Assembly: GCA_036872755.1 (NCBI GenBank)
Contig: JAVHNS010000014.1
Coordinates: 186,001 to 250,000, forward strand
Length of the DNA: 64,000 nucleotides
Direction: 5' to 3'
DNA from: Orbilia blumenaviensis
Taxonomy: Eukaryota; Ascomycota; Orbiliomycetes; Orbiliales; Orbiliaceae
Shown here: piece after piece, positions 23,663 to 35,052 of the stretch
Numbering within the stretch: the first letter of the stretch is position 1
Layout: each line of letters begins with the position of its first letter
The notes under the pieces: model-generated
Told to the model about the DNA's origin: nothing
Database searches by the model: none
The model's input: the letters and a program-made list of their open reading frames with translations, nothing else
Program-made: the position numbers and the translations under genes

Positions 23663-26600
23663 CTACCAGAGGTTGACTCTCCTCACCCCCTCCATCTGGT
23701 AGTCGTCCAGCATCCACACCAACCCCCCCTTCTCGCGCTTCTGCGTCAGCAACGAGAACACCTTCGACCTCGCCACCCCACTCCTCACCCCCTCCCAAAT
23801 CCCCTCCTGCCCCTCCATAAACTCCTTCTCCCCCATCCACAACTCCCCTCTCAGCGACACCCACCTCTCCAGGCCCCCACTTCCTCTCCCTTCCACATCC
23901 ACCATGCTCTCCTGACCCCCCCAGGCCAGTCTGAGCCTCACCCACGGCAACTTCTTCTCCACCAACCTCCTAACCTCCTCCTCTTCCACCGCTGGCTGGT
24001 GCCTCAAGACCACCTCCCTAAGGCTGCATCCTTGCCAGGCATATCGGATGCCCTGTAATGGGCGCGACGAAATCTTCCCCGGAGTGGAAGGCTGGCCGGA
24101 AATTTCGATGCCGCAGATCATCCGGCACGAGGTGAGCACGCACAGCATGCTCACGTCGGTCAGATTGACCCCGCCTCGAACGGCCACCCCCACGAGATCC
24201 GGGCAAAGCTTAACCAGCTGGCAGAAATCGTCATCTTCAATGTCAAGCTGGCCCCCTCTCACCTCCACGTACACCAGCTGTCTGCACAAACCCACGTTCT
24301 TTCTCACCCGCTCCAGGATCCCCGCTGCAGCGCCGGTCTCCGTTGCAACGACAATTAGTTGCGTCGTATCGTCTGGAATAGGAACCAGGGGCTCCCACTC
24401 CGAGACAACCGCAACCCTCTTGTCGCTGCCGCCGTCCTCAGCTGGCAGAACCTCCTCGAGGTCAGAGGGATCGTCGAACTTAATGAGATCGACATCCTCT
24501 TCCCCAAGAAGGTCCCGCTGGCCTCGGGCTGGATCCCATTGCCCTAGCTCCTGAGCCTCCTCCCCCTCCTCCACCCAGTATGAGAATGCCCCCTCCCACT
24601 CCTGCATCCTCACCCGATCCCTCAACATCTCTACCTCTCTCTCCAAGTGACTAACCCTCTCCGTCAACCGGATCAATTCCACCCCCTGATCCGCGATGAC
24701 TCGCCTGTCCTCTTCCCTCTCCTGTCCCAACCGACGTAGCTCATCCCTCATGCTGGATACCGCCTCCAGCAGCTCCCTTGTGACCTTGGTTTCTTGTTCT
24801 GAGGAGTTTTCCTTCTCCCCACCCAAGAGCGCTTTAACGTCACTCTTAGGTGTGACGAGTTTTTTAACGAGGTTTTCTTTCCTCTCGAGGGGTTTAGCGT
24901 CGCCCAGGCAGACGGGTTTGCAGAGGGGGTTTCCCTTCCCCCGAACGTCCTCTTCTTCCACCCACTTCCACTCCCCTTCACTCCTCACTCTCTCCTTCTC
25001 TAGCGGCTTAGACACTGGCTCCTCGAAGGAGCAAAATCCCGCCACCACCTCACTCCATTCCTCCGCACTGTAAACACGATCTCCCCCGCCTCTCTCCACG
25101 CTGGGCGTTTCAGCTCTCCTTCTGGGGGCTGGACGCCTAATCTCCCTCACTAGGGGACTCATCGGCTCTGGGAGCGATATCTCGGTCCCCGAAAAGTAAC
25201 TCGACGAGCTGGCCGTCGGATCTGGGCCGAATTCCCAGATGCTCGACAGGGCCTGCTCAACGACCTCGCGCATCTCCGGTACCCTCAGAAGCTTTTTCAT
25301 CACGGGGGGCATCTGCTGCCCCTCCGGCACACAGAGCTCTCCGATCACATCTTCTACGTGCGGAAATGTATTGAAGGGATAGTGAAACTTTCTCCCCCCA
25401 GCACGAACGTGAACGAACCCAAACTCTCCGGAGATTTCAATCATGTCCCCGTCTATCTTAAAGCTTCGGCAGAAAAACCCTTCTGTGGGTTGCTGAGCGG
25501 TAAGCTCTTCAATCAGCGGAAACCGGCGAGGTCTTGGTGACGAAGGTGCGGATCCACAGTTCCCTCCGTGAATCGTTGGGATGTGCGTAGTCTCTGGTTC
25601 GAAAGGTGCCTTACCATTAGATGGCCCATCGAAACCGCCATGAAGACCGTCACTAGAACCGACACGAAGCGAGGTAGGTTTCTTAGCTTTAGTATTTGGT
25701 GTAGCAGCCGGAGGGTTGAATTTTCCTTCTCGAATCAAAAAATCCATTCGCTGTTGCAAGTTGTCATATGCAAGATGGAGCCTTGCCTTGAGATCCCCTA
25801 ACTTGACCGTGGGACAATCAATCATGATGCTGTCCACATCTAAACCCTCTTCCCTACTGCGAGCGAGAGTATCTCGTGCGTAACGGTAACGCTCATCCTC
25901 TTCCTGGACATGGTCGACAAGGTAGACGCGGTCATTTGTATCTGGATCTCGAGCAGCATAGATAACGCGAATGCCAGTATACTGCGAACGTTCAAAAACG
26001 GGGAGCTTCCGGATATCCTCTTCTGGAATCTTGGTGGATGAAGAAAACAGTTGGCGTGACTTGAGGGACTTTTCGTCGTCTGGGCCATCGTAGTTTGTAA
26101 AACGAGTGTATGAACTAGGGGGTTCACGTAGAGCGACAGCTGGAACATCGGAGTCTTTCTAGAGCTCCACGTCCGAAGCCGCATCTCCAGTGAGTTCATC
26201 ATACTCGTATGACTTGACCTCGTATTCAATATCATCCTGGTTGCTGTGTTGGCTAGGGGTATCAACGGGCTTTGCAACTGTAAATTCGTGGTCGGGAGTA
26301 AGAGATGAATTGCCATGGAGGGAACAACTGATACCGAGATCCATTCCATCTGCAGGGCGGGAGCAGTTCAGAACCATTAGATCGGCGCCTATGTTTTTTC
26401 CTGGATGGTTGTGGATCTTGCGTTGGACCAAAATAGAAGCAGCTGAGCGCTGAGAATCGTGACAGAGGTAGTTGGGAACGACCGGAAAGAACTTATCAGC
26501 GACAGGAGAGTGAGAGCTATAGTGATAGACGGTTCTTTGATTGGGCGTAAATGAGACCCACTTCGTGGGATTGAGAGTACTCCCGTGGTGTTCGTCGGTC

Positions 26601-32939: not shown

Positions 32940-32941
32940 TA

Positions 32942-32989
32942 ACGTATTTAACCGGGCTGCGAAACAAACCGGCAACACAAAACGCTAAC
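32942..32989 (+). repeat. Left terminal inverted repeat
   Basis: Starts ACGTATTTAACCGGGCTGCG and continues with GAAACAAACCGGCAACAC. It matches the right end over about 46 positions and keeps ordinary GC content, unlike the interior. Confidence 0.88.
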
Positions 32990-35004
32990 CTCAAGTGGGT
33001 TGAGTGATTCTTCTTGCTAACTCCTAAATACCTTCAATATTTCTATTTTTTTTCTATAAATTTTAACCTTCTATCTTTATATTATAAAATTCATTATATT
33101 TAGTTTTAAACTATAAAGAGGATTCTTTAAATTTATTAATAATACTATAAATTAAATATAATTTAATAAATTTAAAAAAAAAAATAAAAATTTAATTTAT
33201 ATTAAAATTATTAAAAAATAAAATTTCAAAATTTTTTAAAAATACAATTAATAAATATAATATATTATTATTAATATTATATTATTAATTTATAAAATAT
33301 ATAATTTAAAAAAATTACTAATTTAAATTTTAAAAATAATTATTTATTTTAATTAAAAAATATATTTTAATAATTTATATAATAAAATTATAAAAAATTA
33401 ATTTTTTTTTTAATTATAATTTTTTTTAATTAATAATAAAAAAAATAATAAACCAAAAAATTAATATTAATTAAATTTATAAATTCTTTAAACAACATTT
33501 TAAATTAATTATAATTTATAACTATTTATTAAAATTTAAATAAAAAAAAATAAATAATATTAAAATTATATTAAATTAGTTTAAATTATATTATTAAATT
33601 ATTAAAAAATATAAAATTTTAATTAAAAACATATAAAATATAAATAAAAAAAAATTTATAATTAATTTTAAAAAATTTAAAATTATTATTATTTTTATAA
33701 TTTATAAATAATAAAAATTTTATACTCATAATACTAACAAGAAAAATATAATTATAATTAAATATATATTTATTATTAAAAAATTTTATTTTTTGTTAAT
33801 TATATATTTTAAAAAAATTTATATTTTTAATTAATATTAAAATTATAAAAAAAAAAAAATTGGTTATAAAAAATTAATATAAAAAATATTATTAATGAAT
33901 ATTTTTTTTTAGTTTAATTAAAATATTATTTTAAATTTATAATAATTTTAATTATTAAATTTTAAATTTTATAATTAAAATAATTATTTATTTTTAATAA
34001 CTATAAATTTTATATTATTATAAATTTTATTAATTTTTATTAAAATAATAAAATTATACTTTTTTATTTTTTATTATATTTAATATACTATTTATAATTT
34101 TTCAATATTAAACTCTTCAATTATTATACTATAACTTATAAAAAAAAAATTAATAAATTTTTAAAATATAAAAATATTATAATTAAAAAATTAAAATTTA
34201 AAAAATTTATTAATATTATTTATATAATTATATTTATAAAAAATTATATTATTAAAAAATAAAAAAATATTAAATTAAAATTATTTAATATATTATAAAT
34301 TTTTAAAAAATTATTTAATTTTAAAAAAAAAAATTATATAAATTTATTATGTGAAATAATTTTAAAACACAAATTATAATTTTTATAAAAAAAAATAATT
34401 TAGTAATTTTAAATTTTAATATATTCTTATATTTTATAAATATATATTAAAAAAATAATAAAATTAGTAATTTTTTATTTTAATTTTATTTTTAAAAATT
34501 AATTAAATAAAATTATTAAAATAATAATTAAATTTTTTATTAAATAAAAAATATTTTAAATAATAAATCAAAAATTAGAAAATATATTTAAAATTTAAAA
34601 AAAAAAAAAAAAGAAAAGTAAATCTTATTTATTAAAAACAAAAATGTTTACAAATATTAATATTAAAAAAATTATTAAAATTATTAAAACCCAAATAATT
34701 ACTTATTTAAAAAATAATATTATAATTACCTATATATATAATTTTAAAAATAAACAATTTATATATATTTAAAATTTTTAAATTTAAGTAGTATTAATTT
34801 AAAAAAAGGTATAAGATAAATTATATTATATTATATTGTTACTTTTTTTTTTTTTATTTATTTTATATAAAATATATATATTTTATTTAAATTTATTAAT
34901 ATATTATATAATTTAATATAATTTAATATATATTTTTATTTTTAAATATTATTTTATTAATTTATATTTATAAATATGTTAAATTTTGAGGTTTTGGTAA
35001 AATT

Positions 35005-35050
35005 TAGTGTTTCGTGTTGCCGGTTTGTTTCGCCGCCCGGTTAAATACGT
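35005..35050 (-). repeat. Right terminal inverted repeat
   Basis: Reverse complement of the left end: reads GTGTTGCCGGTTTGTTTCGC and ends GCCCGGTTAAATACGT, followed by TA. The match fades into the AT-rich interior at about 35005. Confidence 0.88.
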
Positions 35051-35052
35051 TA

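Follow-up and report, generated by a model that had tools for sequence, protein, structure and literature searches.

A 64-kb window of the Orbilia blumenaviensis genome (the whole stretch of DNA that was analysed, 64,000 nucleotides) was found to contain a transposon whose interior has lost nearly all of its C and G through transitions and whose inverted ends have kept near-normal GC. The element is very probably a dead copy of the Fot1/pogo type (Tc1/mariner) that was decayed by RIP in this nematode-trapping fungus of the class Orbiliomycetes. Both the transposon family and the process are already known, and it is the spared margin at the ends that is the unexpected part of the result, with strong statistical evidence behind it. 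The features of the element in window coordinates are as follows:

32940..35052, + strand: Fot1/pogo-type DNA transposon, in all probability decayed by RIP; 2,113 bp including both TA
32940..32941, no strand: left TA target-site duplication, from sequence inspection
35051..35052, no strand: right TA target-site duplication, from sequence inspection
32940..32988, + strand: left terminal inverted repeat (TIR), 49 nt with TA, GC 0.449
35004..35052, - strand: right TIR, 49 nt with TA, GC 0.469
32989..33055, no strand: left subterminal margin, mostly spared, from C/G loss by distance and logistic fit
33140..34980, no strand: saturated interior, from C/G loss relative to the second copy on C10
33133..34853, + strand: decayed Fot1/pogo transposase frame with many stops, from a transition-tolerant profile alignment

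The two arms (32940-32988 and 35004-35052) were paired at 46/49 nt (94%) with TA at both outer ends, and inside the TA the TIRs start with ACGT and are about 47 bp long. Interior GC was 0.038 (alignment columns 100-2014) in comparison to 0.479 and 0.447 in the left and right 10-kb flanks, and a scan of the window in 200-bp pieces at 100-bp steps gave GC below 25% nowhere else. The element was assigned to the + strand because the decayed transposase aligns on that strand. A preliminary description of this DNA had proposed a TA-flanked insertion of the Tc1/mariner type with an interior of almost pure A+T and GC-bearing ends, which is borne out and can be narrowed to the Fot1/pogo kind. Its estimate of inverted ends of about 46 bp with normal GC agrees with the 49-nt arms, but on the left the GC-bearing margin proved wider than the TIR. 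Elsewhere in the window, on the - strand at 23663-25837, an open frame of 724 codons without a match in Pfam was observed; it lies in a stretch where GC reaches 58% and the GC skew of the + strand falls as low as -0.35.

The second copy and the composition of the ancestral interior

A search of the genome with the left end identified one other locus that carries both ends, C10:1168359-1170472, in the opposite orientation. TA is also present at both ends of this copy, and outside the TA the flanks of the two loci look unrelated by eye. The window copy and the C10 copy (2,114 bp) aligned end to end with 306 transitions and 0 transversions, and the single indel between them is a 1-bp deletion in the window copy relative to C10, located in a run of A near 33850. 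A transversion-free alignment to an independent locus rules out an assembly artefact, a gap fill or chance, and with them the gap-filled or misassembled interior that the preliminary description had raised as a way in which the structure might disappear. The same description had held that a lack of other TIR copies would argue against a transposon, and what the genome contains is the C10 copy together with related termini on C9 and C13.

The C10 copy is less decayed than the window copy, with an interior GC of 12.9%, yet it is not intact, so the proposed comparison of TIR-bearing copies, in which a GC-bearing coding interior was to indicate RIP, leans towards RIP without having supplied an undamaged coding copy. 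Among interior C/G sites seen in C10, 92% of the C and 93% of the G were gone from the window copy, and among those seen in the window copy C10 had lost 67% of C and 84% of G. Strand asymmetry is typical of single RIP events, and the centre of the C10 copy, where columns 600-1800 in window orientation retained 113 C versus 14 G (sum of 150-column bins), fits such events.

Capture-recapture of the C/G surviving across the two copies gave an ancestral interior GC of about 0.44, similar to that of the flanks, a value that assumes independence between the copies and is a lower bound where they share hot and cold spots. The estimate was 0.27 when the ends were pooled into the interior, and estimates by block varied widely (for example 0.13 at columns 1914-2014).

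Loss in the window interior occurred in every context, at CpA 107/113 (0.95), CpT 88/98 (0.90), CpC 29/33 (0.88) and CpG 2/2; loss is saturated there and the context bias is weak. RIP indices, given as TpA/ApT and (CpA+TpG)/(ApC+GpT), were computed for interiors and flanks, much as the preliminary description had suggested, and the outcome was mixed: the window interior was positive (1.04; 0.61) and the C10 interior was mixed (1.00; 1.06), with values of 0.82; 1.13 in the left flank and 0.93; 1.16 in the right flank. RIP occurs in the sexual cycle and needs RID. Taking these observations together with the methyltransferase genes described below, we infer that the process was RIP proper, and passages of PMC3828140, PMC3164635 and PMC7882544 report RIP in Orbiliomycetes.

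Transposase remnant and related sequences

Plain searches for coding content returned nothing, as expected of a destroyed frame: read-through pieces compared with Pfam matched 0 families in both sets tried, and none of the 7,997 candidates scored when the read-through frame was used in a protein search had E <= 1. The PF03184 (DDE_1) profile had no match in the whole genome, which is weak evidence given that the control genomes likewise gave none. A tolerant profile was built from the first 70 proteins of 480-600 aa among 120 fungal pogo-type transposases listed with PF03184, and each codon was scored by the best residue reachable by undoing C to T or G to A changes. Frame +1 of C10 (the + strand of the window) scored 646 in comparison to 338 +/- 13 for 30 codon shuffles (z 24.1), the remaining five C10 frames gave z <= 1.6, and even without tolerance frame +1 reached 24.7, when no shuffle exceeded 18.2 (z 7.2). 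In the window copy z was 14.5 in frame 1, 8.8 in frame 0 and <= 2.5 in all others, a division of the signal between two frames that the 1-bp deletion predicts.

The alignment covered profile columns 1-558 of 560 over window positions 33133-34853. Of the 77 conserved columns in the alignment, 38 can be led back to the family residue by undoing transitions (null 9.3 +/- 2.8) and 39 cannot, and in 19 the residue is unchanged. An open transposase frame is absent, with 44 stop codons in the best C10 frame and at least 66 in every window frame. This alignment, in combination with the TA duplication, the size and the ACGT ends, identifies a Fot1/pogo-type element.

Other relatives of the interior, among the best 40 of 381 candidates, were C9:1909414-1910543, C3:2623234-2624076, C11:1822669-1823495 and C19:57830-58533, which had 75-79% identity to the C10 copy at 516-806 bits, with the next match in that set at 150 bits; these are probably older members of the family. 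Beside the C9 relative lies a patch of higher GC (L092:101-275, about C9:1908350-1908524; 25-bp bins mostly at 28-48% and a single one at 4%) between AT-saturated stretches, which may be inserted unique DNA or a fragment that escaped mutation. A MITE-like, non-autonomous element of 629 bp whose right part is AT-rich was observed on C2 (L062:582-1210, C2:1013081-1013709), with TIRs identical to the window left TIR at 35/49 and 37/49 positions and further diverged partial matches on C18, C9, C7, C3, C6 and C4. Its comparison with the C18 relative gave 113 transitions and 66 transversions, and as this number of transversions indicates an old divergence the pair was not used as a RIP replicate. 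Eight other loci with near matches to the TIR (six to the outer and two to the inner TIR 18-mer) held no stretch matching the window left TIR at 30/49 or more. A separate AT-rich (14-20% GC), strand-asymmetric repeat (L055:1901-3018, C5:2657661-2658778) had 71 genome matches including itself, several of them a few kb or less from where a contig begins or ends (C6, C14, C10) and others internal. It may be a subtelomeric repeat that was hit by RIP, although negative RIP indices were obtained for it.

Loss of C and G towards the ends of the element

Loss was counted by using each copy as the informant for the C/G sites of the other. The window copy had lost 3/44 sites in the terminal 49 bp and 4/20 at 49-75 bp in comparison to 202/217 beyond 200 bp (ends versus interior, Fisher p = 1e-31), and for the C10 copy the corresponding counts were 4/45, 2/18 and 45/60 (p = 3e-12). 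The difference was also present at CpA sites alone, where the window copy had lost 3/13 less than 75 bp from an end versus 95/101 beyond 200 bp (p = 3e-8), and where ends and interior of C10 differed with p = 0.003. The expectation in the preliminary description that RIP would reach the termini as well is reasonable, and yet they were mostly spared.

The margin is graded. From the left end of the window copy inward, successive bins lost 0/9, 2/13, 1/12, 1/3, 4/7, 7/9 and 13/14, and from the right end 0/12, 1/11, 3/7 and 7/7. Half of the sites were lost at about 116 bp from the left end (bootstrap 79-162), a margin wider than the TIR, at about 56 bp from the right end (bootstrap 41-66) and at 80 bp from the left end of C10 (bootstrap 54-195), while the logistic fit for the right end of C10 (midpoint 258, bootstrap 41-360) was uninformative because the window copy has too few C/G there to serve as informant. 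Similar ends were seen in two relatives: one end of C9 had 19/49 GC in the terminal 49 bp followed by 2/26, and one end of C13 had 26/49 followed by 3/26, C9 having been found through its interior and C13 through a query that included terminal sequence and is biased to copies with recognisable ends. The other end of C9 had no TIR in the 451 bp read. On the C9 and C13 ends the GC step coincides with the TIR boundary, and on the right ends of the two full copies it lies close to that boundary. End sparing was thus counted over 4 copies and 6 ends, with the C3, C11 and C19 relatives left out.

These observations are best accounted for by a Fot1/pogo transposon that inserted at TA and was then duplicated in O. 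blumenaviensis. RIP very probably followed, changing C to T in each strand of the two copies and removing nearly all C:G pairs from the window interior in every dinucleotide context. The mutator would act only within the shared homology and poorly in its last ~50-115 bp, and the TIRs, being the last bases of that homology, would keep near-normal GC while the flanks stay clean. We give roughly even credence to the view that the margin reflects such an edge effect of homology recognition in RIP.

Losses that appear in just one copy must postdate the separation of the two, and this timing bears on a different explanation, sparing by function, in which copies kept moving after the first rounds of RIP and only those whose TIRs and subterminal binding sites still functioned were passed on. 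A non-autonomous copy needs its TIRs, short TIR-sharing elements exist in the genome, and the GC step at the TIR boundary on C9 and C13, and approximately there on the two right ends, would suit such selection. The one-copy losses, in spite of this, postdate the last common ancestor and yet show the full contrast between ends and interior counted above, and as a resident copy is not under selection for its TIRs, selection for mobility explains the sparing poorly. The missing DDE_1 match in the genome also counts slightly against it, the control genomes being blank as well, and we consider sparing by function unlikely. Alternatively, a host or transposon factor bound to the TIRs, or chromatin, may have blocked the mutator. 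Shielding of this type is consistent with the C9 and C13 ends, where the margin equals the TIR, and in the window copy the spared left side takes in subterminal sequence to which further protein could bind, but the left gradient extends over ~75-200 bp in a manner that is not footprint-like and a transposase source was not found in the genome (again weak evidence); its probability is similarly low. Gene conversion might also have restored the ends, with unmutated TIRs of the short TIR-sharing elements or of each other as donors, and related TIRs are present in the genome. Such conversion is very improbable, as the base at TIR position 19 tells the two sides apart, with T on the left and G on the right in the window element and in C10 alike, indicating that no left-right homogenisation took place there, as the TIRs of the short C2 element show 12 and 14 mismatches in 49 bases to the window left TIR, and as the spared left margin continues past the TIR. 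The same end-specific difference, kept in both copies, disfavours the earlier suggestion that the termini were turned over separately. An interior GC of ~4% might finally suggest that AT-rich cargo, or a centromere-like or replication island, lies between the TIRs, as the preliminary description had also allowed, but the C10 copy, the ancestral GC estimate from capture-recapture and the still alignable transposase describe an ordinary coding transposon and exclude this possibility, and many other AT-rich stretches in the genome match.

The poor fit of selection, the lack of homogenisation and the wide, graded left margin together point to a property of the mutational process, either an edge effect or shielding. 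The unequal margin width at the two ends (116 versus 56 bp) argues against an edge effect, and as the margin stops at the TIR boundary on C9 and C13, a TIR-specific cause retains some probability. The earlier proposal that the termini were protected can be kept in the sense of a mutational margin, and what protected them is a matter of the likelihoods given here.

Methyltransferase genes and comparison with known systems

A PF00145 search of the genome gave four matches at three loci (L071, L072, L073). Two of these loci are similar to a 537-aa DNMT from Ascobolus immersus (E 1e-79 and 1e-37), which we take to be Masc1, and one DNA methyltransferase open frame corresponds to TWF730_004874 (100% identity over 94% of the query). 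The ENV motif of the third locus is replaced by ETD and EQT in the two Ascobolus-like loci, which is a RID/Masc1 trait. The third locus matched PDB 7r76 over ~1,035 residues (E 3e-218), an entry listed as Rad8 and presumably Cryptococcus Dnmt5. By similarity, the genome has two Masc1/RID-like loci and one Dnmt5-like locus. No DIM-2-like locus was found among the PF00145 matches, in agreement with PMC7882544, which did not find DIM-2 in Orbiliomycetes. In Neurospora without DIM-2, mutation of the single-copy linker between repeats drops to nearly zero, according to a passage of PMC11969663, and the absence of DIM-2 would fit the clean flanks of the Orbilia element and may explain why mutation did not leak into them.

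We suggest, tentatively and with some doubt, that RIP in Orbilia, acting with RID-like proteins and without DIM-2, hits nearly every cytosine of a duplicated sequence yet misses the outer 50-115 bp of the homology and spares the flanks, that the margin is a fossil footprint (half-length) of the homology-recognition unit, and that DNA transposons keep mobilisable ends as a result. There is no settled account of how RIP detects homology between intact duplexes, and a natural, near-saturated pair with measurable edges such as this one offers models a length scale of ~50-115 bp. If the suggestion is true, RIP can kill the transposase and leave the ends usable by another transposase, which would bear on the persistence of short non-autonomous elements in RIP-competent genomes.

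The element shares with fungal Fot1/pogo transposons (PF03184, HTH_Tnp_Tc5 PF03221, HTH_psq PF05225) the TA duplication, the size of ~2.1 kb, the ~47-bp TIRs, the ACGT ends and a near full-length alignment to the transposase profile on one strand, and differs from usual members in having no intact reading frame, an interior of 4% GC and a coding region that is invisible to Pfam unless transitions are allowed. For Sclerotinia Tc1/mariner elements, a section of PMC4188875 gives lengths of 1.3-2.4 kb with TIRs, and ACGT ends in non-Pogo families. The two RID-like proteins that resemble the Ascobolus immersus DNMT are a point in common with the MIP/Masc1 system of Ascobolus. MIP of Ascobolus methylates and does not mutate, whereas the product in the Orbilia element is mutation.

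With RIP in Neurospora and the Pezizomycotina the Orbilia system has in common that only C:G to T:A changes occur, that both copies and both strands of repeated DNA are affected, and that RID-like genes are present. In Neurospora, RIP is described as covering the full extent of homology and leaking outward (PMC4858203, PMC7296669), and in Zymoseptoria the ends of transposable elements, mostly LTRs, are described as RIP hot spots (PMC10294615); these descriptions count against a spared margin as a general property of RIP, and the Orbilia ends depart from the Neurospora account in PMC4858203. No report of spared repeat ends was found in a literature search whose coverage lay outside most subscription journals and whose results were in part off-topic. 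The Orbilia element departs from known RIP in its setting, a genome in which no DIM-2-like locus was found, and in its outcome, which combines a near-complete loss of C and G in all contexts with clean flanks and with a margin at the repeat ends that is nearly unmutated.
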